NCBI GenBank assembly: GCA_028291515.1
Contig: JAQGHU010000114.1
Span: forward strand, 62,001 to 126,000
Reading direction: 5' to 3'
DNA length: 64,000 nucleotides
Source of the DNA: Schlesneria sp.
GTDB lineage: Bacteria > Planctomycetota > Planctomycetia > Planctomycetales > Planctomycetaceae
This document shows, in pieces, positions 5,168-41,485 of this stretch. Each line of letters begins with the position of its first letter. Position 1 is the first letter of the stretch. The notes beneath the pieces are model-generated. The model was not told the DNA's origin, did no database searches, and saw only the letters and a list, made by a program, of their open reading frames with translations. A program made the translations under genes and the position numbers.

Positions 5168-8100
5168 ACCCGTCACGGCCCTTCATTCTGAGGCCGGTGG
5201 CGACGGTACTGTTCATGGTGGCAATCCTGCTCTCGGGACTTGTCGCTTATCGCCAGTTACCCGTCTCCGCTTTGCCGCAGGTTGACTATCCCACCGTTCA
5301 AGTGCTGACGTTCTATCCAGGGGCTGGCCCGGATGTGATGGCTTCGTCGGTCACTGCTCCACTCGAAAGACAGTTCGGTCAGGTTCCTGGTTTGACCCAA
5401 ATGACCTCGATCAGTTCCGAGAGTTGTTCCGTCATCACGTTACGGTTTGACCTGGCTCTGGACATCGATGTCGCCGCGCAACAGATTCAGGCCGCGATTA
5501 ACGTCGCATCCAGCTTCTTACCGCGCGATCTGCCGAATCCCCCGATCTATACGAAGACCAACCCCGCCGACTCCCCAATCCTGACATTGGCGTTGTCATC
5601 GACATCACTGCCGCTGGCAAAGGTCGAAGACCTGGCGGACACGCGACTGGCGCAGAAGATCTCGCAGTTGCCCGGCGTGGGGATGGTCAGCATCAGCGGC
5701 GGGCAGAAGCCGGCCATTCGCATCCAGGTCAACCCCACGGCATTGTCCGCGATGGGCCTGAACATGGAGGACATCCGGCTGGTATTGGCTGCGGCAAACG
5801 TCAATCAAGCCAAGGGAAGCTTTGACGGGGTCCGTCAGTCATACACAATCGGAACTAATGATCAGCTGTTCACGGTCGAGCAATACGGCCAGTTGATCGT
5901 CGCTTATCGTAATGGCGCGTCGGTAAAGCTATCTGATGTCGCCGAGATCATCGACGGCGCCGAGAACGTCCGGCAAGCAGCCTGGATGAACGATACTCCC
6001 GCGGTCATTCTCAATATCCAGCGACAACCCGGCGCGAACATCATCGAAGTCGTTGACAACGTGAAGTCGCTGCTGCCGCAGTTGCGCGAATCACTCCCGG
6101 CCGCCGTCGAGGTCGAGATCCTGACCGACCGAACGACTACGATACGGGCGTCGGTGGAAGATGTTCAGCGAGAACTGATCACCACGGTCGTGCTCGTGGT
6201 GCTGGTGATCTTCGTATTTCTTCGAAACGTCTCCGCGACAATCATTCCCAGCGTGGCCGTGCCGCTGTCGCTGATCGGCACCTTCGGAGTGATGTATCTG
6301 TTGGGCTACAGCCTCAACAATCTGACCTTGATGGCCCTGACGATCTCAACCGGCTTCGTCGTCGATGATGCAATCGTGATGATTGAAAATATCATGCGAT
6401 ACATCGAAGAGGGCGAATCTCCGATGACCGCTTCGCTGAAAGGGGCCGAGCAGATCGGGTTTACGATCGTCTCGCTCAGCGTGTCGCTGATTGCCGTGCT
6501 AATCCCGCTGCTATTCATGGGCGATATCGTCGGCCGTCTGTTCCGCGAATTCGCGGTGACACTCAGCGTGACGATCCTGATCTCGGCGGTCGTCTCGCTG
6601 ACGCTGACGCCAATGATGTGCGCTCGCTTGCTGCACCATAAGCCTCCGGCCGAGCAAAGCTGGATGTACAAGTCGTCCGAAGAAGTGTTTGAATGGATCA
6701 TCCGGCTGTACGGCCAGACGTTGCAGATCGTCCTGCGGTTTCAGGGGATCACAATGCTGGTCTCGGTACTGACCGTGGTCGCGACCGTGTACTTGTACAT
6801 TATCGTGCCCAAAGGATTCTTTCCGGTTCAGGATACGGGCGTGATCCTGGGCATCTCCGAAGGCCCGCAAAACATCTCGTTCGATGCGATGTCCGAAAAG
6901 CAGCTCAAACTCAATCGCGTCATCATGACCGATCCAGCTGTGGCTAGCCTCTCCAGTTTCATCGGGATCGACGGGACGAACACAACTCTGAACAGTGGCC
7001 GAATTCAGATCAATTTGAAATCGTTGGAAGAACGCCATCACGCCACCGCTGGCGACGTCATTCGCCGCTTGCAACCGAAACTGGCCGAAGTGACTGGGAT
7101 CACGTTATTCATGCAGCCGATTCAGGACTTGACAGTCGAAACGCGTGTGAGCCGTACCCAATACCAATACAGTCTGGAGACGCCCGATGCCAAAGAGCTC
7201 AGCACCTGGGCTCCCAAGTTCCTGGAAAAGCTACAGCAATTGCCTGAACTGCGAGACGTCGCCACTGACCAGCAGAACGACGGACTGCTGGCACGCATCG
7301 TGATTGATCGCGATACGGCATCACGTCTGGGGATCACACCTCAGATGATCGACGATGCCCTGTACGACGCGTTCGGCCAGCGTCAGGTGTCGATCATGTT
7401 CACGCAACTGAATCAGTATCGCCTGGTGCTGGAAGTCAAAGGGGATTTCAAGAATGAACCTCGCGATCTGCACGAGGTCTACATTCACCCGCCCGGTGGC
7501 GGGATGATCCCGATGAGCAGCTTCACTCGCGTTGAAGAAACGACCGCACCGCTCTCGATTAACCACCAAGGACAGTTCCCCGTTGTCACGATTTCGTTCA
7601 ACTTGGCTCAGGGCGTTTCGCTGGGTGACGCAGTGGAAGCCATTGCGAAAGCTCGCCAAGAAGTTGGGATGCCTGACAGTATCGTCGCCGGATTCCAAGG
7701 GACCGCCGCTGCATTCCAGGCCTCGCTGCAGAGCACTCCGCTGCTGATTCTGGCGGCTTTGGTGACGGTCTATATTGTGTTGGGAGTCCTCTATGAGAGC
7801 TACATTCATCCAATCACGATTCTTTCGACGTTGCCTTCGGCCGGTGTGGGTGCACTTGTCGCGATGATGCTTTGCAAGATTGATCTGAGCGTGATCGCAT
7901 TGATCGGGATCATCCTGCTGATCGGAATCGTCAAGAAAAACGCGATCATGATGATCGACTTCGCACTGGATGCGCAACGTCATCAGAACATGTCCTCGCG
8001 CGAAGCCATCTATCAGGCGTGCCTGCTGCGATTCCGCCCGATCATGATGACGACCATGGCGGCTCTATTGGGCGCTGTTCCATTGGCCATGGGTCACGGT

Positions 8101-24042: not shown

Positions 24043-24129
24043 CTCGCGAATCAACTGTTCGATTGCCGTTCGACTTCTGCACAACAGGGTTCGCGTAGCG
24101 CAATCGCGATAGATCGAGATCCGAATACT

Positions 24130-24216
<87 letters not shown>

Positions 24217-24273
24217 AATACTTTCCTGCTGTCGCCGCAACTACTTATAAATAAGTGAGTTGCGAGCAGGAAT

Positions 24274-24437: not shown

Positions 24438-25622
24438 TCAATACAGTTTCACCTGTTTCATCTGGCGAATCGATTCTTCGTCGTGCAGGTGATAGTAGCG
24501 ATGGACCATGCGGCTATTCCGATGGCCCAGCCATTTCATGAGCACTCGTTCCGGAACTTTGCTATTGGCACAGTTGGAGCAGAAATAATGCCGAAAGCTG
24601 TGCAGCCGTCCATCAACGAAACCGAGTTCATCAACCGCTGAAGGAAACTGCGGAGATAGCGGCGTCAGAACATCACGGATCAGAATACGACGGACGGTGT
24701 CTGCTTTGATTTTGCCGTCCAGAGGTCCATGGAAGACTCGCCCGTCTGAATGGTGCGGCAGCAACCCCAAGACCTCCAGGAGGGTTTTGTGAATCGGAAA
24801 CGTTCGATCACGTCCCGATTTTGTCGTTCGTTTTTCCTTGCCTTGGCGGGATTTCTTTGTGGTCTCATCGGTCAGGCTGATCAGCCCCTTTTCCATGTCG
24901 ACGTCCGACCACCTGAGCGATGCCAGTTCTGAGATCCGAAGGCCGGTCGCTGCTAGACCGATGACGACACCCCGAAGCCAGGCCAACTCTGGCGTCTCAC
25001 AATGCTTCAGGATCGCCTTGACTTCCACCGTCCTGTAGCAGTACGTGTCAGTTCCGTCGGGCTTCCGCAGCGGGTATTTAAGGGCGACAGCGCTGGGTAG
25101 GTGGTGATTCTCGATCAGGAATTTCAGAATCTGCTTCAGCGTCGTAAGCTCCAAGTATTCCGTCGCATAAGCATATGATTCGCCATCGAGCCAACCGGCA
25201 TAGTCGTCCATCAGTTGGCGATTCAGTTCGTTCCACGTTCTTCGCCGCTGCTCCTCCGCAAAAGGAATGAACTTGTCAAGCACTGCCTTATAACGTTTCG
25301 CAGTTGATCGCCGGGGACCACCCGAGACTTGAGGGCGATTGATATAGCTCTCGTACAGCGTGCGACCGTCCGCCCATGTCAGGATTTGATGCGCCTCTGT
25401 GTTCAGCAGATTGGCATCAGCCAATCCCAGTTGCACAGCCATCGTCAAATCTAACTCTTCAAGAATCGTTAGGGCTTCTGCACGATCTCGCGTTTCCAGA
25501 GTTCGCCGACCCAATGACGGGTGACTGCCACGGCCGTCGGCGAAGTAAATCCCATTCCGCTGGCCTATCAGCCAGCGAAAATATCGACACCGAAGCTCTT
25601 CCTTCTTCTTGGGTCTGGGCAT
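24438..25622 (-). CDS. Tyrosine recombinase / integrase
   Basis: A site-specific recombinase of 394 residues. The C-terminal catalytic domain has the first Arg in [16 protein letters not shown], the H-x-x-R box in [12 protein letters not shown], the second His in MKWLGHRNS and the nucleophilic Tyr in the [11 protein letters not shown] segment. An N-terminal SAM-like core-binding domain precedes it. The ATG at 25622 has GAAGGA eleven bases upstream; an in-frame ATG at 25646 lacks one. Position next to tRNA-Ser and an excisionase-like gene upstream identify it as the integrase of a mobile island. Confidence 0.93.
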
Positions 25623-25661
25623 AGTCAAAGAAATCCTTCGAAGCATTTGGAATGGTTGATC

Positions 25662-28399: not shown

Positions 28400-29047
28400 T
28401 CAGGCAGCCGTGAGCTCGCCGGCCAACAAGTTCAACGTGAGATCTCGCTCAACAGAGACACCGCGGAGCCAGCGGGCGAATTGATGCACCATGATTCCTG
28501 CGGCCAGACTGGCCGTGTAAATCGTGCTGCGAGCGGTACAGCGGCCGGGTTGAGCTTCCGAAGCCGCAAATAGCGTCGTGGGATAGTGCTCGCGACCAGT
28601 GTCTTGCGTGACCGCCAACACGCGAATCACTTCGCCCAGCATTCGACCGTCAGTCCAAAAGTCACAAGTTTTGTTAACGGATCGCCAGATGGCAGCGCGC
28701 GTGGTAATCGAATCGACGCAGCAGAATACAGCTTCACCAATTGGATGAGTAACACGATAACGATCAGTAATCGTACTGACCTCAATCGTAGCATCGATTT
28801 GACGAACGACAGCTGCGGTGGCCGCGACTTTGGGTGACGAGATATCGATGGTGAAATACCCCTGCGTGGTGACATTTTTCTCTTCCACCATGTCAAAATC
28901 GATGAGCTGGAGTTGTCGCACGCCGAGCGCGGCCAGTTGCAGCGCCACCTGCCGCCCGATCGCTCCGACACCGATCACGGTCGCCGTGATGTTTTCTAAG
29001 GCCTGGCTGGGAACAAGATCCTGCTGTCGAATGAAGCGGTCTGTCAA
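28400..29047 (-). CDS. ThiF/E1-like adenylating enzyme
   Basis: A minimal E1 of 215 residues consisting of one Rossmann-type adenylation domain. It should adenylate the C terminus of the small modifier encoded upstream and pass it on as a thioester. Seen: nucleotide loop GVGAIG (26-31), ID50FD52 and N58 for ATP/Mg, K73, and CVDSITTR (D112, R117). Cys170 in PGRCTARST is the best candidate for the transfer cysteine. No metal-binding CxxC pair of canonical ThiF/MoeB is present. I use the TTG at 29047, preceded by AGAAAGGG; the frame is open to 29350 but that part lies inside the JAB gene in another frame. Confidence 0.85.
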
Positions 29048-29102
29048 AGAAATACCCTTTCTTGTGGAGTTGAGCAGTTGACTGCTGACGCAGATGAACG
29101 CG

Positions 29103-29771
29103 TCAGACAAGATCACTGGGAGAGCGGATCGACGAGTTAAGGAAGTCGAAGTCGTCCGGATAGAACTCCGTCCGATCGTTGAAGAAATCGAGTCCGTCGA
29201 GAATCGTGCCTGACTTCGCCTGTGAGACACAGGTACGGTATTCGCGATCCCAGACGAGGAGGTCCGCGGCTGGGAACGGATGTTCGTAGTCCACTTCGAA
29301 TGGTAACAGTTGCTCGCCGCCAGGACCGATTGAGAACCGGAGTCTGGCATAGGACTGTCCGCCGCAAGCCAGAATTGCCATCACGGCCCAGTCACTACGA
29401 CCAAAGACGCGGCGAAACGTCTCTTCGTCGACAGAACTCGGCCTGGCCGAGTTACCGGGATGCGTGTGGATCCAGACCCGACCAAATTGTTCCGGCCGCC
29501 GTCCTGCATCGATCTGATCGTCGAAGAATTCCGCGACGGATGTATCGTCAAACGCGACGCTTACCGTCGTGCAGACCTGCTGAATCAGAATCACGTCTTC
29601 GACCAGCAACAGATCATTGGGATGAGAGATCCCGAAGCCGCCAACTTCCGTGTCACCAGCATCACGCAGGTATAGCAGCTTCGCCCACGCGGTCGGTGTG
29701 AACCGCAGACTCGCTGGACGTGTCCGACTCCTCCTCTTCTTCCGCATTCGCTTCTTCATTCCTCGCAGCAT
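29103..29771 (-). CDS. JAB/MPN (JAMM) metallopeptidase
   Basis: A 222-residue protein with a complete JAMM zinc-isopeptidase motif: E42 in TEVGGFG, H102-T-H104-P, S112 and D115, spaced exactly as E...HxH(x7)S(x2)D. In ubiquitin-like systems such enzymes mature the modifier or remove it from targets. The N-terminal 20 residues are strongly basic. The ATG at 29771 has GAGGA five bases upstream and is the best start, although it lies inside the E2 gene: the two genes overlap by 110 bases in different frames. The C-terminal 90 residues beyond the JAB fold are acidic and unrecognised. The modifier's Gly-Ala end is a likely substrate. Confidence 0.88.
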
Positions 29772-30690
29772 CGCAATCCTCGCAAAGTTGATTGATCAGA
29801 CAGTTTGAGCAGTACTTCAGGCGGCAATCGGGGCAGACTGCGAGACAGCTGGCGCAGGATCGCTCTTCGCAACGGCTGCAGGTTTCACGACAGTCGTCGC
29901 AGGAGGTCTGGTAGCAGTGATCGCAGTAGGTGCTGCAGCTGTCGCAGACATCCTGTTCGCAGTGATCACAGCAACAAGAGTCATCGTCACTGACAGAGTC
30001 ATCACAGATCCGGCACCTGGTTCCGTTCCAATCGGAGAGCGAGACATAAGGGCTGCTGCTGTTGTAGGTCAGCAGCGTTTGTTGGATGATCAGAAAGAAA
30101 TCAACGAATCGCCCATCCCACAGTGCATTCTGGAGCGGAACAGTGGCGTCTCCTTCGCAAAGTCGATTGTCGTTAACATGCGGGTGGGTGATATCCGGAC
30201 GAGAGACTGCGGGATTGGCATCCACCGCGATGACCTGAGACAGTCCCGTTACCAGGTCTTTGCCACTGAGGACGACACGAAATCGGCCCAGTTCGATTTC
30301 TTCCAAAGTGATCGGCGTGGTGATGACACTGATCGTTTCTTCGCGGAGGTCGAATTCAACATCCTCGAATTCTTCCGAGAGCGTTTTCAGTTCCTCGTAG
30401 AGCAAGCGTTGCGTCGGCAATACAGACAGCAGCGGTGTGCTTAGCGATTCCGCAATTTCATCGAGATGCCGACAGCTACGGATCAACTGTGTTTGCAGTT
30501 CGCGCACGGAATGCTGAAGAGCAATGGGCCAGCCGCGATGGACGCTCTGTTCGATCCGCTCAGCCAGACTCTGCAGCTGGGCAAACCGCTTGGGAGTGAA
30601 GTCCAAATTGACGGCAGGCTGAGGTTGTAGAGCCAGGCGATTGGCAAGCTTACCCGCCAATCGCCAGAGCGTCCGGTTGAAAGTTGGCAT
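29662..30690 (-). CDS. E2-like (UBC fold) conjugating enzyme with C-terminal zinc-knuckle repeats
   Basis: A 342-residue fusion. Residues 1-110 are mostly helical. Residues 112-215 look like a UBC fold, with the E2-style active site H169-P-H...L177-C178-E-G. Residues 226-306 contain 22 cysteines. Within 241-300 there are four consecutive 15-residue units of the form CxxCxxxxCxxCxxx, flanked by single CRIC and CEDC knuckles. This array may act as an E3-like or substrate-binding module, but lacks the C3HC4 spacing of a RING finger. The last 35 residues are very acidic. An AAGGAAA ribosome site precedes the ATG. The gene lies just after a terminator-like hairpin behind the modifier gene. Confidence 0.82.
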
Positions 30691-30701
30691 CGACGTTTCC
30701 T

Positions 30702-30742
30702 TGCAAAAGAAAGTGAGCCACCGAGTTGATTCGGTGGCTCAC
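30702..30742 (-). terminator. Terminator-like hairpin between modifier and E2 genes
   Basis: A perfect 12-bp stem, GTGAGCCACCGA (30713-30724) against TCGGTGGCTCAC (30731-30742), with a six-base loop. Read on the minus strand it is followed by TTTCTTTTG, the layout of an intrinsic terminator. It lies 36 bases after the modifier stop and about 23 before the E2 start, so it should end most transcripts after the modifier and let only part read through into E2, JAB and E1. Confidence 0.85.
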
Positions 30743-30778
30743 CGCCAGTGTGGATTACGAGGGAGGAAGCGCGGGGTC

Positions 30779-30997
30779 TCAGGCCCCTTCGATCTTCACT
30801 GGTGTGAAGCTGATCCGGTCTCCTTCTTGAAGGACCTGATCCGCGGCAGCGGGCTGACGATTCACCCGAATCAGATAGTCGCCCGCTTTCCCGGTGGGTA
30901 CGCGCTGTGCAAACAATTTTGAGACCGTAGTGCCAGTTTCCACTTCAATGTGGTCAGCAAACCCGGCACCGTCATTGTTGATGTAGAGGATTTTCAT
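30779..30997 (-). CDS. Ubiquitin-like beta-grasp modifier (ThiS/MoaD-like)
   Basis: A 72-residue protein with the pattern of a ThiS/MoaD/ubiquitin beta-grasp fold: strand 1 MKILYINND, strand 2 ADHIEVE, the central helix [11 protein letters not shown], strand YLIRVNRQP, and the family-typical [11 protein letters not shown] near the end. It finishes Lys-Ile-Glu-Gly-Ala rather than Gly-Gly. Removal of the last Ala would leave a Gly terminus suited to E1 adenylation, as with precursor forms of ubiquitin. It is encoded immediately upstream of E2, JAB and E1, which identifies it as the conjugated protein or a sulfur carrier. The terminator-like hairpin behind it suggests higher expression than the enzymes. 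Confidence 0.82.
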
Positions 30998-31051: not shown

Positions 31052-31348
31052 CTACCAGCAAGGAGTTAAGGCCGATTCGGCGAGATCGTGGTCGGGGAGA
31101 AAGACTTCGTGTTCTTCGTACGGATAGGCGATGTCGCACTGTTCGCACTCGGCCCACTCAGGAAGACTTCCACGATCGGATGTCAGCTGGACGTCTGCAC
31201 CACAACCGGGGCAGGAGAGGCAAAGTTGCGGAGCGGGTGTGGCAAAGGGCACATCGAGTCTTAGCAGGCTAAAACCTCGCTGGCGAATGGTCCGTGATGA
31301 CTCTCCGGTGGCGGTCGCCACCAGACTGTTTAAGCGAGATCGAGACAT
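31052..31348 (-). CDS. Small zinc-ribbon protein
   Basis: A 98-residue protein with two CxxC pairs (CPGC and CEQC, about 24 residues apart) forming a rubredoxin-like zinc ribbon, an N-terminal basic region (SRSRLNSLVATATGESSRTIRQRG) and an acidic tail (YPYEEHEVFLPDHDLAES). It might present substrates or contact RNA or ribosomes, but this is conjecture. A CTGGAG ribosome site precedes the ATG. It is 54 bases upstream of the modifier gene, in the same operon. Confidence 0.72.
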   Translation of the reverse strand: MSRSRLNSLVATATGESSRTIRQRGFSLLRLDVPFATPAPQLCLSCPGCGADVQLTSDRGSLPEWAECEQCDIAYPYEEHEVFLPDHDLAESALTPCW

Positions 31349-31491: not shown

Positions 31492-31737
31492 TCAATCGCT
31501 GGGGCTGATGTTCAGGACATGGTTGATCAGCCACTGCTGTTCAGCAGTGAGTGCCTCACTGCGGCGGCAAAACGGTCCGAGCGTCGGTCCGTCGATGAGG
31601 TACGCGAACCACTGCCCGGTTGAATCCGGCTCGACATGGCTGGCCCGGGCGATCTGCATCATCCCGAGGGACGACAAATCCAGAAGTTCGTCGTAGAGCG
31701 TGGCGACTTCACCATTTGGGCGAATGTACAGGTCCAT
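31492..31737 (-). CDS. Small conserved protein of the ubiquitin-like operon
   Basis: An 81-residue soluble alpha/beta protein beginning MDLYIRPNGEVATLYDELLDL, with a central RASHVEPDSTGQWFAYLIDGPTLGPF segment that looks strongly conserved in style. Its ATG overlaps the stop of the 321-residue gene (TAATG), so the two are coupled and probably act together. I recognise no domain and assign no function. Confidence 0.7.
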   Translation of the reverse strand: MDLYIRPNGEVATLYDELLDLSSLGMMQIARASHVEPDSTGQWFAYLIDGPTLGPFCRRSEALTAEQQWLINHVLNISPSD

Positions 31738-32702
31738 TAGGGTTCCTCTCGCCGGCTTGGTCGCAGGATGTTGCGGCGCGGACGATCGACCATCAAACCA
31801 TCCAAAGATGATTGGACACTTGACAGTTGTGTCGCCAACCGATGGCGCAGTGGACCATCGTCACGCAGTTGCTGCGGTGCCACGCCGCTCATTGCCCGTT
31901 GGGCTCGCTGGACGAGTTCATCCAACTGGTCATTGGAGTGAACGTTCAAGGAGCGAAATCGCTCGAAGAACTCGGTCAGATTCGTGACGGCCGTGTCTCG
32001 GAAGACTTTTTGTTTACCGTCTGCATTACCGTTCAGACGTTCACCGAGGTGATCCACGAGCTTGGACAGTTCTTCCAGAAACGCTTGCTCCGCCAATTGC
32101 ACTGCTTCATCGAACCGTGTTTGGACTCGTCGACATTCCTGTTCATACAACTCTGGATTCAGCTGCCGCAAATAATCTGGCGGTTCGACTGACGGATATT
32201 CGTGCTCGATGCCGAAAAGGCCAATCAACGTTGGCGGATAGTCTCTCGCATCATACAAGTTTCCAAGTCGGCGTCGAGCCGCGGATCGGAGCTCGTCATA
32301 GCGCTGATCGAGTGTCGCAACGGCATCGGTCAATTCTTCTTGGAAGCCCGCCAGCTGTCGATCGAAATCACCGATCACGCGCTGGGGAATCAGTCGGATA
32401 CCTGGCTCTGGATACGGCAACGAAATCGCTCGCCAATAGCTTTGGCAACGCCCCTTGATACCTGTGACGACCTTGAAGGCGGGATGTGATGTGTCGAGGA
32501 GCTTCTTGCCAGCGGACAGAAATTTGCCCTCGGCCCCGAATGAGTCGGCGGCTTGGTTTTTCTGTTCGACAGTCAGCGTCTTGCGGGTGCCGGGCCAGGT
32601 GAAGCTCAGCTTGATGGCTGCCATCGTGCCGCGCAGCCTAACCGATGCCACTGAAGCGTGAGACGAACCGGTTGTCGGCTCGTCGAGGAGTGAGGTCGCC
32701 AT
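31737..32702 (-). CDS. Coiled-coil protein at head of the modifier operon
   Basis: A 321-residue largely helical, charged protein with long predicted coiled-coil stretches (about 110-150 and 185-235) and a motif region SAGKKLLDTSHPAFKVVTGIKGRCQSYWRAISLPYPEPGIRLIP. That central part is reminiscent of DUF3150-like proteins of phages and plasmids, but I am not certain. It follows a strong terminator and so is probably the first gene of the transcript carrying the 81-aa protein, zinc ribbon and modifier. No membrane helix is seen. Confidence 0.7.
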   Translation of the reverse strand: MATSLLDEPTTGSSHASVASVRLRGTMAAIKLSFTWPGTRKTLTVEQKNQAADSFGAEGKFLSAGKKLLDTSHPAFKVVTGIKGRCQSYWRAISLPYPEPGIRLIPQRVIGDFDRQLAGFQEELTDAVATLDQRYDELRSAARRRLGNLYDARDYPPTLIGLFGIEHEYPSVEPPDYLRQLNPELYEQECRRVQTRFDEAVQLAEQAFLEELSKLVDHLGERLNGNADGKQKVFRDTAVTNLTEFFERFRSLNVHSNDQLDELVQRAQRAMSGVAPQQLRDDGPLRHRLATQLSSVQSSLDGLMVDRPRRNILRPSRREEP

Positions 32703-32821: not shown

Positions 32822-33268
32822 TTACTTCTGATTGGATTTCCAGTTATTGCGGACCCAGGCATCGCGCCACTGATGCGTTTTGATTCCATTGCCGTAAATG
32901 GCGAACTCGATGGGAATCTCCTGCTCTGGATCGTAATTTCGCAGAGGAAATGACAATGTGATCGCATGGGACTTGTTGGGTTCCCAGACCTCATAGCTGT
33001 GTTCCTTCAAGTCATCTCCATACAACCGGACCCTGAACGTTCCATTCCGGAGATTACCCGTATGCTGATGCCAAGCTGTCATTTCGAGGGTCGGGGCACC
33101 AAAGAGAACTGGGTGCTGAACTCGTGCCGAAAGGCGCGGTATCACAACCGGTGTTGTTTCTTCGACGTGTTGGACGTAGAAGGAAAACCCCAGAAAGCAC
33201 AGGAACCCAGCGACGATTAAAGCTATTACGACAGTGCCACCGTCCTGATACCAATGTTTATCACTCAT
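32822..33268 (-). CDS. Membrane-anchored beta-sandwich protein
   Basis: A 148-residue protein with one N-terminal membrane helix (about 11-31) and an extracytoplasmic domain of beta character (LSARVQHPVLFGAPTLEM..HQHTGNLRNGTFRVRLYG). Its ATG overlaps the stop of the lipoprotein gene (ATGA), so both are coupled. The pair may form an envelope complex. No known family is recognised. Confidence 0.65.
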   Translation of the reverse strand: MSDKHWYQDGGTVVIALIVAGFLCFLGFSFYVQHVEETTPVVIPRLSARVQHPVLFGAPTLEMTAWHQHTGNLRNGTFRVRLYGDDLKEHSYEVWEPNKSHAITLSFPLRNYDPEQEIPIEFAIYGNGIKTHQWRDAWVRNNWKSNQK

Positions 33269-34890: not shown

Positions 34891-35199
34891 TCACCGTTTC
34901 GGTGGCAGGACGACCGTGACCATTTCGTATCTCGCATCCGCCACCCCCGAAACAATTGCATTCGCGGCCAAGTGAAGGGCGAAGTCGATCAATCTGTCGT
35001 CGGTCGGTGAATAAATCGCATACCTCAATTCGCAATTCCGCAGGTAGGTCTGAAGGTCACGAAGCTCGCGAGATGTCCATTCGACCGTCGGTTCTTCGTC
35101 AAAATAGAGGCGCATGACGTCCATCCCATGTGGCCCCATTTCATCGTCAAAGTATTGCAGAGCCGCGCGAAGCAGGGCCAGATGCGATTTTGTCAGCAC
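34891..35199 (-). CDS. Island hypothetical protein, 102 aa
   Basis: A 102-residue alpha/beta protein (LTKSHLALLRAALQYFDDEMGPHGMDVMRLYFDEEPTVEWTSRELRDLQTYLRNCELRYAIYSP) that I do not recognise. It follows the AAA+ gene by about 40 bases and is probably the last gene of that operon, converging with the controller-like gene at a gap of ten bases. Confidence 0.6.
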   Translation of the reverse strand: MLTKSHLALLRAALQYFDDEMGPHGMDVMRLYFDEEPTVEWTSRELRDLQTYLRNCELRYAIYSPTDDRLIDFALHLAANAIVSGVADARYEMVTVVLPPKR

Positions 35200-35240: not shown

Positions 35241-36722
35241 TTAATTCAGGGATGAATCACGGCTAACCTTCCGCCGCGATCCCGATTTAGAGCTGGAATG
35301 GTAGTAGATGCCAGGAGACTGCGCCGAGAGGCAGCGTCCGCTGGCCCATTGCCGGAGTCGATCCACCGATTCCGCCGCCGTAATGGCGACAGGGACCACG
35401 TTTTGGGCTGACTGGATCAGCGGTACATCGAGCAACGCCGACAGTCGACAACAGGCTTTAATCTCGGCTCCCGTCCAATTCGCGTCGTCGGGCATTCGTT
35501 GCTCGCGATCAATCTCGAACTGGTCTAAGTAGAGACTCCAGATCGCGTCTTTTTCTTCACGGGTCGGCAGATCCAGGAAGAAGATCCCATCAAACCGTTC
35601 GGAGCGGCCGAATTCCGGCGGGAGCTTCGACACATCGTTGGCGGTACAAACGACAAACACGTCCGACGTATGGTCGTTCAGCCAACTCAAGAATGTCCCA
35701 AACATCCGCGAGGTGACGCCGGAATCACCGCTGCCATTAATTCCCGCGAAGGCTTTTTCGACCTCGTCGATCATCGCCACGCACGGGGCCATCGCATCGA
35801 TGATCTTGAGGGCCTGGCGGGTTCGTTCTTCGGATTGCCCGACGAGCGATCCCATCAGGCTGCCCACATCCAGGATCAGCACCGGTCTGCCGACCTCCTT
35901 ACCAAGCGATTTGCAGAATTGGCTCTTGCCACACCCTGGCGGTGACAACAGCAGCACGCCGCGAGGTCGTTTGGCTGGATTACCGCGACTGGGTTGGAGT
36001 AGCGCCCGTTTACAAAAACTCTTGAGGGATGCCAGTCCGCCGAGACTGCTGAATTCTTCCTGGCCCCGATGCAGTTCCAGCAGTCCAGACTTTTTGAGCA
36101 TTCCCGATTTCAATTTCCAGATGGCTTCACTGGTAATCCGACCGTATCGAACGAGCGACAAACTGAACGCGTTTTCCGCTTCTAACCGCGTCAGCCCTGA
36201 CGCGGCATCGAGCACGGTTTCCAGTTCTGGGCCAACAGGAAGCTCCGCCGCTTCCGTGGCAATTTCCCGTGCGATCTCGTCGAGCTGCTGACGGTCGGGA
36301 AGTTCATGCTCGATCACCACGAACAGTTTTTCGATCTCGATTGGCAACTGCACCACAGGTGCAAGGATGACGATGATCGTTCGGTTCTGTTTGCCGTTCA
36401 AAATCTGCTGCGACAGGGCCTGCACGATCTCTGCGGACGATAAGAATCGATGGAAGTTTTCCAAGACCATGACCGCGGTGCCGGTCGCCGTCGCCAACGA
36501 ACTTACCGATCGGATGGCTGCCAGCGGATCACCGCCGTTTTGTTCGATGGCGGCACCGGCAACCCGCAATCCTTGATCGAGATTCCAGGTTGCGAGTTGC
36601 CACTGCTCACGTTGGCACAACTGCGCGATGGCGGCCGTCGCTTCGTGTTGTTCGTGAGTTTCGATCCAAATGGCTGTAAAGCACGCGCGTACGTACTCTG
36701 CCAGCTGCTCGGTGAGCGCCAT
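35241..36722 (-). CDS. AAA+ ATPase, Ycf46-like
   Basis: A 493-residue protein. Residues 1-215 form an N-terminal domain like that of Ycf46/FtsH-related AAA proteins, with a degenerate ATPase-like fold (IWIETHEQHEA...AVMVLENFHRFL). The AAA+ module has Walker A SPPGCGKS (260-267), Walker B VAMIDE (315-320), sensor region CTANDVSKLPPEF and Arg fingers around R373/R376. It presumably remodels or unfolds a protein, perhaps a conjugated substrate. The upstream genes for DUF2997 and DUF1257 proteins are in the same operon; relatives of these three occur together in cyanobacteria and plastid genomes. Confidence 0.85.
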   Translation of the reverse strand: MALTEQLAEYVRACFTAIWIETHEQHEATAAIAQLCQREQWQLATWNLDQGLRVAGAAIEQNGGDPLAAIRSVSSLATATGTAVMVLENFHRFLSSAEIVQALSQQILNGKQNRTIIVILAPVVQLPIEIEKLFVVIEHELPDRQQLDEIAREIATEAAELPVGPELETVLDAASGLTRLEAENAFSLSLVRYGRITSEAIWKLKSGMLKKSGLLELHRGQEEFSSLGGLASLKSFCKRALLQPSRGNPAKRPRGVLLLSPPGCGKSQFCKSLGKEVGRPVLILDVGSLMGSLVGQSEERTRQALKIIDAMAPCVAMIDEVEKAFAGINGSGDSGVTSRMFGTFLSWLNDHTSDVFVVCTANDVSKLPPEFGRSERFDGIFFLDLPTREEKDAIWSLYLDQFEIDREQRMPDDANWTGAEIKACCRLSALLDVPLIQSAQNVVPVAITAAESVDRLRQWASGRCLSAQSPGIYYHSSSKSGSRRKVSRDSSLN

Positions 36723-36956: not shown

Positions 36957-37151
36957 CTATTGGCCCTCCCTCAACTGCTGCTTAACTGCCGTCGACTGAT
37001 AGAACTCCGCTTTCAGAATTTCTTTGGATTGTTGTCCGAGTGCGAGCTCGATGAACTGACTTGCACTCCGACATTCGGCACCGACGAATCCTTTCGTCTC
37101 GATTCGTGATTGTCCATTGGGAGCCACGATGATCTCGATAGTCTTGCTCAA
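36957..37151 (-). CDS. DUF2997 family protein
   Basis: A 64-residue protein (SKTIEIIVAPNGQSRIETKGFVGAECRSASQFIELALGQ) matching the small DUF2997 family in length and in the ETKGF.G..C.....F motif. The start is a TTG whose TTGA overlaps the stop of the DUF1257 gene, so it is translationally coupled. The family is usually found beside DUF1257; its role is unknown. Confidence 0.82.
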   Translation of the reverse strand: MSKTIEIIVAPNGQSRIETKGFVGAECRSASQFIELALGQQSKEILKAEFYQSTAVKQQLREGQ

Positions 37152-37516
37152 GCCGTACCTCCAACCTGGATGGTGAGTTTGATGGATCCGTCCGACAGGG
37201 ATTGTTCAGTCACGGTGTGCCCGTGGCGTCTGGCTTCGATCTGTGCTTTCGATACGGCATATCCTTGGAGGAAGAGGTCCAATTGCTTCTGATCGCCCCA
37301 GCGTCCGCCGAAGTTGTCGAAGGCAATCTTCGCTGTAGTGACGTCGCAGACGACCGGATATCTCCAGTCTGGCAAGCGAACCGCCCAGCCTACGGCCGAG
37401 GTACTAAAGAGTTTCGCCTCGCCGAACGTAGGTTCAGGCAATGACAGCCGACCACATGCCGCCTGAATGGCCATGGGGTCACGAATTTCCGTTTGAATCT
37501 GCACGACATGCGACAC
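37148..37516 (-). CDS. DUF1257 family protein (Ycf35-like)
   Basis: A 122-residue protein with the DUF1257 pattern SHVVQIQTEIRD...LACGRL.LPEP, WAVRLPDWRYPVVCDVTTAKIAFDNFGGRWGDQKQLDLFLQGYAV and the basic C-terminal IEARRHGHTVTEQ. This family includes the algal plastid Ycf35. Its start is a GTG preceded by GGAGC. It heads the DUF1257-DUF2997-AAA+ operon. Function is unknown, but repeated linkage to a Ycf46-like ATPase suggests a complex. Confidence 0.85.
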   Translation of the reverse strand: MSHVVQIQTEIRDPMAIQAACGRLSLPEPTFGEAKLFSTSAVGWAVRLPDWRYPVVCDVTTAKIAFDNFGGRWGDQKQLDLFLQGYAVSKAQIEARRHGHTVTEQSLSDGSIKLTIQVGGTA

Positions 37517-39376: not shown

Positions 39377-41485
39377 TTATCGGCGAAATTCAGTCCAACT
39401 GCATGCTTGCAACGCTGCTCGTGCGCACGAGTCCCAAGTGTATTTATCGATGATGTACTTTCGAAGCTTGTCCGCGGCAGAAAAGTATCGATCTAAATTC
39501 GTCGAAATCTTGAAAAGAGCATCTGCGACTTCCTTGATATCATTCTCATCCGGATCGGATGCGTGGGTCGATCCCCGAACATCCACCATTGTCAGGCAAT
39601 CGGCTCCAAATGTGTTGTCATCTTCGGCCAACAATTTGTACAAGCCCGTATGTTTCGAAACGATCAATGGGACACCCGCAGCAATAGCCTCCCATCCCAC
39701 TAGGCCAAACCCTTCATGCCACGAAAGCATCATTGCGACTTCATTATCGGCCAAGGCTTGGTATAGACTCGTTCGATCTTCCGTGTAGGGCGTCGCATTT
39801 ACCGCAACAACGCGTTCTGCCTCACGATGCATGAGCGCTTTAATCGCGGCTTCTTCGGTCGAATATTGCGCCTCCGAAAGCCCGAACATGCTGAATCGAT
39901 GTTCGCGCCAGTGAATCTGATTTGCAGACATTTTGATATATCTGCCGTACCCTGCAACTGCAAGGGAACCTTGTTTGATTGGATCGTCTTCCCCGCCCAG
40001 CCGCCCGAAGGTAATTGCGCGAAACGCATTTTTGGCGCGGTGCGTTATCTTCGTGATGGTCGCCAATCCCGGTACCACCATTGGTATATCCCGTTGGCAC
40101 AACCGCTCGGCAGACTCCTTTAGAAGCGGCCCGACCGCGACAACAAACTTGGCTTTTTGGAAGACATTCCGCTGTTCATCGTCCATTTCTCTAGCAGTTC
40201 GACCAGATCTCTTGATCGCCTGATAACTGATATAACTCATGTGGTGGAAAACAAGCGATTGCGCATGAAGCACCTGACTCAATGAAATGGCAATTGCACC
40301 CGTAATTACGTCATGACCACAGACGAGAGGCACATTCCTGAATTGATACTTGCGCAGAAGCACCGCAGCACTTGTTGCGACATCGTCGGAGATCACATCA
40401 TTGATTCGTGGCAACGTCACAAGTCTAATGTTGTACTGTTCCTCATAGAACGAACGTGTCACATCATCGACGCCACTCGTCACGCAGACAACGCATGTGT
40501 CATCACTTACGATTCTGCTCAATGCCAAGCAAAAATCGATGTTGAAGGAATTAATTCCTCCAAAGGAGGGACCCCACCCCGTTGCAACGACGACAATCGC
40601 GCTTTGGCAACTCTGAGGTCTAACGCGCGTACTCAATTCGTTAGCAGGAATCATGCGTTCTTCGCGATCAGCTTCCCGACCCGCACAGCTATCATCAGAT
40701 GGAAGGAGGGGAGAATCTGTGGAACCCTGACTGGATGATTTACTTACTGACGCGGAACTGGTAGGTACAAAATGATGAGACAGGAGCTTCTTCATGTTCT
40801 TCGCAAATTTTCTCGGTCGATTTCGGTATTTGGGATAGAACGTGCCATTTTCCAAATTCTCAAACCACTCAATGACCATAGGATCGTCTGTTTTTGAGAG
40901 CGCGACAATTCTAACGAACTGATCAATGTCGCGAAGCTCGCCAGCGAGTGCCTCACCGGTCCGATAGCCACCAACGGTTCTTTCGTGGCCCAAGATCCTT
41001 CCCGGATCCATCCTAACGTCAAGAATTATTGCCACAAATGGACACGCCAATGCCAAGCGAAGCGCAGAGTCAGCATTATCAACTCGAAAGACTTCAAATC
41101 CGACCGCAGCCAAGGCATAGGAGTAGTCTTGGTTGTCATAATAATCATCATCGACAAACATTATCTTTGGAGCGTTGCTATTGTTTGCGGGCAATACTTC
41201 GTAATCGTCGTCTCTAAGCAGCGCCAAATCGTCGTCGAGCAGCCAGTCGGGACTGTAGTTCCAAACAGATCCGCGGTCATCTTGCAACTCATCCGTAATT
41301 GCTTCCTCTTCAGTCGGGATGGGTGCATCATCGCCTGCTTTTTTGCGATGTCCATGCGTTTTAAATCGCTCGTCAAACATCTTGTACACTTCGTGACGCG
41401 TTTTAGGAGTACAAAGACTCACTGTTGTGCCAGCATATGCATCAAGTTGAACGTGGACAGCTTCAACACGGTACTGTGAGCGCAT
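39377..41485 (-). CDS. Receiver-like domain fused to a GT4-type glycosyltransferase
   Basis: A 702-residue protein of unusual layout. Residues about 105-230 form a response-regulator-like domain (IMFVDDDYYDNQDYS, then IILDVRM with the acceptor-position Asp, and ALSKTDD). A Ser-rich linker follows. Residues about 300-700 are a GT-B glycosyltransferase: a glycine-rich start (GWGPSFGGINSFN) and the C-terminal WHEGFGLVGWEAIAAGVPLIVSK nucleotide-sugar box with the E-x7-E pattern. It may glycosylate a target under phosphorylation or allosteric control. The start is uncertain; an internal ATG near residue 35 is an alternative. No histidine kinase is adjacent. Confidence 0.75.
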   Translation of the reverse strand: MRSQYRVEAVHVQLDAYAGTTVSLCTPKTRHEVYKMFDERFKTHGHRKKAGDDAPIPTEEEAITDELQDDRGSVWNYSPDWLLDDDLALLRDDDYEVLPANNSNAPKIMFVDDDYYDNQDYSYALAAVGFEVFRVDNADSALRLALACPFVAIILDVRMDPGRILGHERTVGGYRTGEALAGELRDIDQFVRIVALSKTDDPMVIEWFENLENGTFYPKYRNRPRKFAKNMKKLLSHHFVPTSSASVSKSSSQGSTDSPLLPSDDSCAGREADREERMIPANELSTRVRPQSCQSAIVVVATGWGPSFGGINSFNIDFCLALSRIVSDDTCVVCVTSGVDDVTRSFYEEQYNIRLVTLPRINDVISDDVATSAAVLLRKYQFRNVPLVCGHDVITGAIAISLSQVLHAQSLVFHHMSYISYQAIKRSGRTAREMDDEQRNVFQKAKFVVAVGPLLKESAERLCQRDIPMVVPGLATITKITHRAKNAFRAITFGRLGGEDDPIKQGSLAVAGYGRYIKMSANQIHWREHRFSMFGLSEAQYSTEEAAIKALMHREAERVVAVNATPYTEDRTSLYQALADNEVAMMLSWHEGFGLVGWEAIAAGVPLIVSKHTGLYKLLAEDDNTFGADCLTMVDVRGSTHASDPDENDIKEVADALFKISTNLDRYFSAADKLRKYIIDKYTWDSCARAALQACSWTEFRR

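Follow-up and report, generated by a model that had tools for sequence, protein, structure and literature searches.

A compact, ubiquitin-like conjugation cassette, possibly a mobile protein-tagging pathway, in planctomycete islands and phages

Prokaryotic operons encoding a ubiquitin-like protein (Ubl) with E1, E2 and JAB proteins have been described since 2006 (PMC1779556), with Bil and Bub as later cases (PMC11354881, PMC13373217). We analyzed a stretch of 64,000 nucleotides of a Schlesneria sp. contig (JAQGHU010000114.1, positions 62,001 to 126,000; hereafter, the window), in which four minus-strand open reading frames (ORFs) at 28400-30997 encode a modifier, an E2, a JAB and an E1. We assign a probability of about 0.6 to the reading that these four genes make up a protein-tagging pathway, mobile and reversible, which mobile elements and phages employ.

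Among operon types 6a-6e of Iyer et al. (2006), type 6d comprises genes for Ubl, JAB, E1-like, E2-like and helical proteins (PMC1779556). The Schlesneria cassette resembles types 6a-6e, which were described as mobile, in having Ubl, JAB, E1 and E2 as separate genes. It differs from 6d, whose E2 is without the classical His and whose JAB has an extra domain, and the excerpted description of 6a-6e makes no mention of a CxxC-repeat fusion, of an AAA/DUF1257/DUF2997 module or of a phage with the whole set (PMC1779556). In Caldiarchaeum subterraneum, one operon encodes Ub, E1, E2, a small RING protein (srfp) and Rpn11, and the Rpn11-type JAMM shortens pro-ubiquitin by a nine-residue tail ahead of its activation by E1 (PMC5654768). 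The compact operon is a shared feature, and the JAB profile from our family also matched Rpn11 best (E=1.8e-5). However, in Caldiarchaeum the E2 and the small RING protein each have their own gene and trimming uncovers a GG (PMC5654768), whereas here the E2 is fused to a CxxC domain, the modifier has a single conserved Gly and the E1 is ThiF-sized.

The FtsH ternary conflict systems, which occur in planctomycetes (Kaur et al. 2020; PMC7159879), likewise combine AAA ATPases and helical proteins with neighboring genes for JAB, E1, E2, Ubl and a RING-type protein. In those systems one protein joins Ubl to E2 and EAD1, and RING and vWA-MoxR-FtsH have separate genes (PMC7159879), whereas the window E2 carries the CxxC domain and is encoded apart from the modifier, and a scan of 21 proteins, all from the window itself, reported neither a vWA nor an FtsH-peptidase family. 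Bil unites Ubl, E1, E2 and JAB in one operon (PMC11354881), and the Bub ubiquitination-like operons were not shown to protect against phage (PMC13373217). The Bil E1, BilD, has two domains, and BilA contains a pair of Ubl domains; the resemblance of the window E1 to BilD and BubCD is that of a ThiF relative only, and among the PADLOC Bil models the E1 matched BilD, with none listed for the modifier, E2 or JAB. Planctomycetes were named in 2011 as carriers of related ubiquitylation operons (Burroughs et al., through PMC4197634), and our family may overlap the planctomycete, actinobacterial and acidobacterial operons of that study, making an earlier description possible. As far as our literature searches reach, an E2-CxxC fusion family with a single-Gly modifier, swappable partners and complete cassettes in phages is new, and among the top-ranked open-access papers listed, none reports a complete Ubl cassette borne by a phage.

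A conserved four-gene family

Modifier loci were collected and near-duplicates merged, leaving 97 distinct loci. Fragments, rows with X and near-duplicates were excluded from the locus count, the E2 alignment and the E1 tree; for residue counts, gaps and X were set aside and rows with inner stops were kept as X. Eighty loci had at least 2.9 kb of sequence downstream of the modifier, where E2, JAB and E1 were found in 71, E2 and JAB in 2, E2 alone in 2, and none in 5. The co-encoding of Ubl, E1, E2 and JAB that marks prokaryotic Ubl-conjugation operons is therefore present in 71/80 loci. Gene order was identical in all 71 loci holding the four genes, which is far beyond chance and bears out the four adjacent minus-strand genes of the first-pass annotation.

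The E2 was found in 12/59 genomes in a search for relatives and in 53 of the 397 genomes of the class, where some matches were fragments and some genomes had several (up to five copies, five candidates being scored per genome); 20 of the E2 matches were taken forward. The modifier was found in 9/294 genomes of the phylum, and 129 relatives were confirmed in GTDB contigs, the best 80 of which were kept. By title, the carriers are mostly planctomycetes (among them Schlesneria, Pirellulales, Phycisphaerae and Gemmataceae), some being labeled only 'bacterium'; single metagenome-assembled genomes labeled Chloroflexota, Actinomycetes and Emcibacter may be misbinned.

The modifier of the window matched ThiS at E=0.0029, under the Pfam cut-off, and 12 of 13 homologues matched it at E<=0.1 (best 1.2e-4). 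Gly71, penultimate in the window copy, is conserved in 93/94 rows and Ala72 in 91/94, with GG in three relatives. The C-terminal pattern used was fitted by 90 of the 97 modifiers, with Ala (87) or Gly (3) following the conserved Gly. Of 88 modifiers with EGA, 14 stop there, as the window copy does, and 74 continue for 1-48 residues. In viral modifiers Ser, Pro, Glu or Asp also occur directly after the Gly, and this variation indicates cleavage at the Gly. Given the conserved Gly and the 1-49 residues that follow it, the modifier looks like a precursor trimmed by JAB; the tails and the viral variation suggest trimming to a single Gly, for which UFM1 and ATG8 are comparison cases. Separately, three loci (L171, L180 and L190) have modifier genes, some apparently decayed, with no enzyme genes found nearby.

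The HP...LC active site read from the window E2 holds across the family, with H169, P170, H171 and C178 each present in 87/87 rows, in accordance with the HP[N/H]...C motif of the E2/UBC superfamily. An AlphaFold2 model from an 80-row alignment (L058, L126, L142 and L156 omitted from 83) had a predicted local distance difference test score of 91.9 and a predicted template modeling score of 0.76. It supersedes an earlier model from 13 sequences that was poor in the cysteine-rich domain, now confidently modeled. The predicted order is three N-terminal helices, a helix, strands, HPH, C178 and two helices (UBC-like), then the cysteine-rich domain and a last helix. In a Foldseek search of the PDB with this model, E2s were 7 of the first 11 matches, UBE2H being first (probability 0.87, TM by target 0.48), and in a profile comparison with four eukaryotic E2s HPHV..LC was in register with HPNI..IC.

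Ten is the usual number of CxxC pairs in the E2 tail (36 of the 66 scored; range 5-13); the pairs are separated by spacers of 3-4 residues, and the tail gave weak matches to FYVE, PHD, LIM, RING and B-box domains. The cysteine-repeat fusion, reported earlier as unusual, exists and is the family norm, not a peculiarity of the locus, since all 87 E2s scorable there carry it. It is plausible that the tail is a built-in E3 or substrate module; as a RING it is at most a candidate. A seemingly conserved extension at the E2 C-terminus was rejected by hand, as it is another frame of the JAB stretch WAKLLYLR in the gene overlap.

This overlap of the E2 and JAB genes, judged by the model start, occurs in 79/82 loci. 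The exact E/HxH/S/D motif that had been noted in the JAB is present and conserved (E 81/81; H 81/81 and 80/80; S 81/81; D 81/81), predicting an active JAMM peptidase. For the E1, homologue alignment places the start at a TTG at 29045-29047, inside the ORF at 28400-29350; the 316-aa reading extends into the JAB gene in another frame. Its conserved Cys (C169; the C170 of the annotation, counting Met) is kept in 74/74 rows, and GxGxxG, DxD, N, Q and K are near-invariant; a further E1 alignment covered 40 of 70 rows. In 10/10 rows compared, four of them viral, D49, D51, N57, Q61, K72, D111 and C169 are all kept. With a ThiF match at E=1.6e-20, over the Pfam cut-off, the protein has the family profile and the motifs (GxGxxG, DxD, N...Q, K, D) of a ThiF/E1 adenylating enzyme, and the earlier reading as a minimal ThiF-type E1 stands.

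In the profile searches of each protein, which the annotation had proposed as a check, ThiF was over its cut-off, Prok-JAB (E=4.7e-5, 23.7 bits against a cut-off of 25) and ThiS were under theirs, and the E2 fell in no Pfam family. The E1 was also below the cut-offs of the NCBIfam ThiF and MoeB models (best 66.6 vs 159 bits). Scores for the curated NCBIfam models 6A-MBL (34.4 vs 320 bits), Cap3 (12.6 vs 200) and PRTRC_ThiF (26.1 vs 144.75) likewise stayed under the cut-offs. The PADLOC matches of the E1 were weak, to E1-E2 of the cyclic oligonucleotide-based antiphage signaling system (CBASS; best 1.7e-12) and to BilD (5.4e-6, 23 bits, no cut-off given).

Complete cassettes in phage contigs

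Scanning IMG/VR with the modifier returned 4 contigs and with the E1 36 loci, the last ten of them remote. Profile searches identified the complete cassette in 27 viral loci on 23 contigs (four caught twice), or 21 contigs if two near-identical pairs are merged. A large terminase match was found in 12 of the 23, two of these below the Pfam cut-off. Two contigs outside these 12 were searched by PHROGs: L207 has genes resembling those for tape measure, UvsX, exonuclease and RNA ligase, and L208 has an RNA ligase. The viral records come without a completeness estimate, so the absence of a gene means little. A search of 22 viral records with T4 gp23 gave no match, and the controls were silent too.

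L207 and L208 carry tandem modifiers (5560-6225 and 5551-6216) in which two repeats are clear, both with KVEGA or KVQGA at the end, preceded by a further stretch that is beta-grasp-like by eye; they resemble poly-modifier precursors. Both also have a second, divergent E2-JAB-E1 set (in L208 the E1 alone is firm and the E2 and JAB matches are weak), with a gene named by eye as Rad50/SbcC-like between the sets. AAA and weak CC matches (E 2e-5 to 6e-9; CC is a conserved neighbor of the bacterial cassettes, described below) lie downstream in L224, L225, L231 and L232, and likewise in L226, where the cassette is cut.

An E1 tree was built from 41/71 bacterial rows (40 drawn at random; the window and L076 kept), 24 viral rows and 6/10 remote rows. 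A clade of 38 (support 100/98) holds 37 of the 41 bacterial rows and one viral row, and most viral lineages lie outside it. Inner support is weak (80/80), the bootstrap was not settled, and a few bacterial rows stand among the viral ones.

Scans of plasmids and named phages with the E2, and of plasmids with the E1, gave no match. Named crAss-like, Flavobacterium, Xanthomonas and Erwinia phages (including L253 and L254) have remote ThiF-like E1s, several annotated as thiamine proteins; two such loci were searched for 5 kb to either side, and neither the modifier nor E2 nor JAB was matched below E=0.1.

The first-pass annotation had suggested phage defense. As phages carry complete cassettes, simple host defense is not the default reading, and the proposal is not supported as it was stated.

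A modular, mobile neighborhood

In the window, the cassette lies near a tyrosine recombinase and tRNA-Ser(GGA), in agreement with the tRNA-linked island proposed earlier, and next to a module of AAA, CC, DUF1257 and DUF2997 proteins (Table 1).

Table 1 Features of the cassette, the neighboring module and the island in the window
Feature	Coordinates	Strand	Description	Basis
tRNA-Ser(GGA)	24129..24217	+	Presumed attachment gene	
Tyrosine recombinase	24438..25646	-	Recombinase of the island	
E1	28400..29047	-	Minimal ThiF-type, 215 aa from TTG; conserved Cys in GxCT	Homologue alignment, Pfam ThiF
JAB	29103..29771	-	JAMM/JAB metallopeptidase, 222 aa; 110-nt overlap with E2 gene	ORF, Pfam, motif, profile search
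E2	29662..30690	-	UBC-like (HPHV...LC178), 342 aa; N-terminal helices, C-terminal CxxC-repeat domain (10 CxxC pairs)	ORF, alignment, predicted structure
Modifier	30779..30997	-	Ubiquitin-like (ThiS-like), 72 aa; C-terminus ...KIEGA	ORF reading, Pfam scan, homologue alignment
ZNR	31052..31348	-	Linker protein beside either payload; conserved N-terminus (ATGE..RGF; helix-turn-helix-like by eye), zinc ribbon here	
g31s	31492..31737	-	81-aa partner protein of AAA/CC module	
CC	31737..32702	-	321-aa conserved protein, 59-68% identity in five homologues; putative coiled-coil of the first-pass annotation	
TM33	32822..33268	-	Small protein, hydrophobic N-terminal stretch by eye; occasional module member	
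s35	34891..35199	-	102 aa, occasional module member	
AAA ATPase	35241..36722	-	493 aa; putatively Ycf46-like in the first-pass annotation	
DUF2997 protein	36957..37151	-		
DUF1257 protein	37148..37516	-	DUF1257 (Ycf35)-like, below Pfam cut-off (E=0.0076)	

Relatives of the recombinase occur in the window, L021, L026, L028, L069, L081 and L089. Among five loci scanned, the window, L021, L069 and the cassette-free L081 each have a tRNA-Ser gene nearby, and L089 has none. A second attachment site, sought in the window and three loci, yielded only matches of 11-14 bases, including a 12-mer from the T-loop. Downstream of the L013 E1 come short ORFs and then TnsA, a TnsB-type transposase, TniB and TniQ, indicating a Tn7-like transposon, and L020 has homologues of the same row.

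The linkage to an AAA ATPase and to the second conserved protein, CC, is supported. CC was found in 118/397 genomes, including 42 of the 53 with E2 (odds ratio 13.5, p=9e-16, relatedness not corrected). The tie is not a fixed one: the module is also found without the cassette, and CC was not found near 32 of the 71 complete cassettes, some of which are near contig ends. Twenty cassette-free loci were hand-picked from CC matches in genomes without an E2 match, and one of them is an additional copy from the genome to which the window belongs. These loci have CC and g31s in all 20, AAA in 19 (one locus ends at the contig edge) and ZNR in 18. The locus is modular: the cassette is one of its payloads, and the DUF1257-DUF2997-AAA-CC module with its 81-aa protein is separable from the cassette. 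A PDB profile search with CC found nothing.

In 13 of the 20 cassette-free loci (L077-L096), a protein of the clamp/nuclease group follows. The nuclease profile contains one fused row and so matches clamp genes too; a 14th match (L081, short) is doubtful and was left out of the count. The best PDB matches of the clamp profile are beta clamps (E=5e-4), with no Pfam clamp match, and the nuclease of this alternative payload is a PD-(D/E)XK nuclease (1.8e-30). The clamp is also present in 5/106 cassette loci, two of them on the same contig.

ZNR accompanies either payload. In 52 of the 71 complete cassettes, 14 of these without CC, it is present at the locus on the same strand, and all 31 of the 98 genomes with ZNR also have CC or E2 by list comparison. 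The zinc ribbon by which it had been recognized is present in the window copy and in 3/12 aligned homologues, and conservation is limited to the first ~28 residues instead. In 5 of 11 further loci fetched for the ZNR gene, ZNR stands with a clamp and/or nuclease and no AAA or CC in the stretch covered. A DnaN-like clamp and/or PD-(D/E)XK nuclease lies beside ZNR in L194, L195, L198-L200 and L204, with or without the AAA/CC module. ZNR homologues in L193, L201 and L202 have no other module genes nearby.

Further observations concern single loci. The AAA reading of L017 (13872-15344) holds a stop. L012 (8892-9602) and L016 (15224-15979) encode related proteins of ~240 aa, TOPRIM/OLD-like by eye and without a Pfam match, whose position is either between the JAB and E1 genes or close to the AAA gene. 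Upstream of the module in the window, 1.9 kb beyond the DUF1257 gene, is a GT4-conflict glycosyltransferase (39377-41485; PF20706, E=2.6e-76), after which come a kinase-TPR protein and a sigma factor.

Proposed pathway and alternatives

Gene content and order, conserved catalytic residues, modifier tails, the swapping of modules and the presence in integrase islands, a Tn7-like transposon and phages were observed directly; conjugation with each of its chemical steps, the binding of zinc, the targets and any part in conflicts among genetic elements are inferred. JAB would trim the modifier precursor after the conserved Gly or the residue following it. The minimal E1, probably a homodimer, would adenylate the modifier C-terminus, take the modifier as a thioester on C169 and pass it to C178 of the E2. 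The cysteine-rich, presumably zinc-binding tail of the E2 would act as a substrate or E3-like module, and a separate E3 would therefore not be needed. The modifier would be joined to target proteins, and JAB would reverse the joining. Sensing or remodeling of targets is probably the task of the AAA/CC/DUF1257-DUF2997 module, which ZNR probably connects to the payload.

Several results weigh against this pathway. Pfam E2 models were matched neither by the window E2 alone nor by 13 homologues. The Foldseek E-values were not significant (best 0.19, none <0.001), and the E2 profile score of 16.2 was barely above the maximum of 15.9 among 50 column-shuffled controls. Because of these two results we term the 342-aa protein UBC-like, not proven UBC: the predicted topology answers to the UBC fold, which was the test set beforehand, and the database scores leave that fold weakly supported. 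A C-terminal GG is absent from most modifiers of the family, a PDB search with the modifier profile found no solved structure, one or more enzymes are missing nearby in 9/80 modifier loci, and the E1, at 215 aa, is roughly as large as an adenylation domain by itself. Pup, the one proteolysis partner sought, had 0 matches in the window's genome, with the control matched in Corynebacterium.

Bil tags phage proteins, and the cassette could similarly serve host anti-phage defense, tagging phage proteins upon infection as Bil or the accessory genes of type II CBASS do. The patchy, mobile distribution among the class genomes speaks for such a role, as do the interchangeable payloads including the PD-(D/E)XK nuclease, the GT4-conflict gene, the integrase islands and Tn7-like carrier, and the weak CBASS and BilD matches of the E1. 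However, complete cassettes lie in phage contigs, over half with a terminase match, the viral E1 lineages are diverse, the 6A-MBL and Cap3 models are far below cut-off, and no PADLOC defense model matches the modifier, CC, ZNR or g31s. We consider host defense a minority possibility.

Equally tentative is the view that phages or mobile elements use the cassette as a weapon, tagging host proteins (for takeover or counter-defense) or rivals, the bacterial copies being captured or resident elements. The 23 viral contigs with the whole cassette, the tandem modifiers, the AAA and weak CC matches downstream in five viral loci and the position of most viral E1 lineages outside the main bacterial clade are consistent with it, but the E1 tree does not settle the direction of transfer and the viral AAA matches may be generic. 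A sulfur-carrier system, with a ThiS-like carrier, ThiF-like activation and JAB trimming alone, as in cysteine or thiamine-type biosynthesis, accords with the ThiS and ThiF matches but is improbable because the HPH/Cys E2-like partner is invariant, and the NCBIfam ThiF and MoeB scores and the recurring neighbors, among which no sulfur-transfer gene was noticed (no family search was aimed at them), also argue against it.

In a further reading, double-stranded DNA phages and related elements might carry their own complete Ubl conjugation pathway, with tandem poly-modifier precursors and an AAA remodeler, and tag host or replication proteins in infection. In its boldest form the tag would target proteins of DNA replication, as a counterpart in bacterial viruses to the ubiquitination of PCNA in eukaryotes; this form derives from the partners that the bacterial cassette has in common with the DnaN-like clamp and nuclease payload, and from a few loci in which both are present. 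We regard this proposal as unlikely.

The cassette is a compact four-gene system in which the E3 function may be built into the E2. Phages are a place where a ubiquitin-style tagging kit was not expected, and the phage link is the surprise of this analysis. Bacterial ubiquitin-style conjugation has been discussed chiefly as host defense; a cassette shared by islands and phages would make phage-encoded tagging testable.

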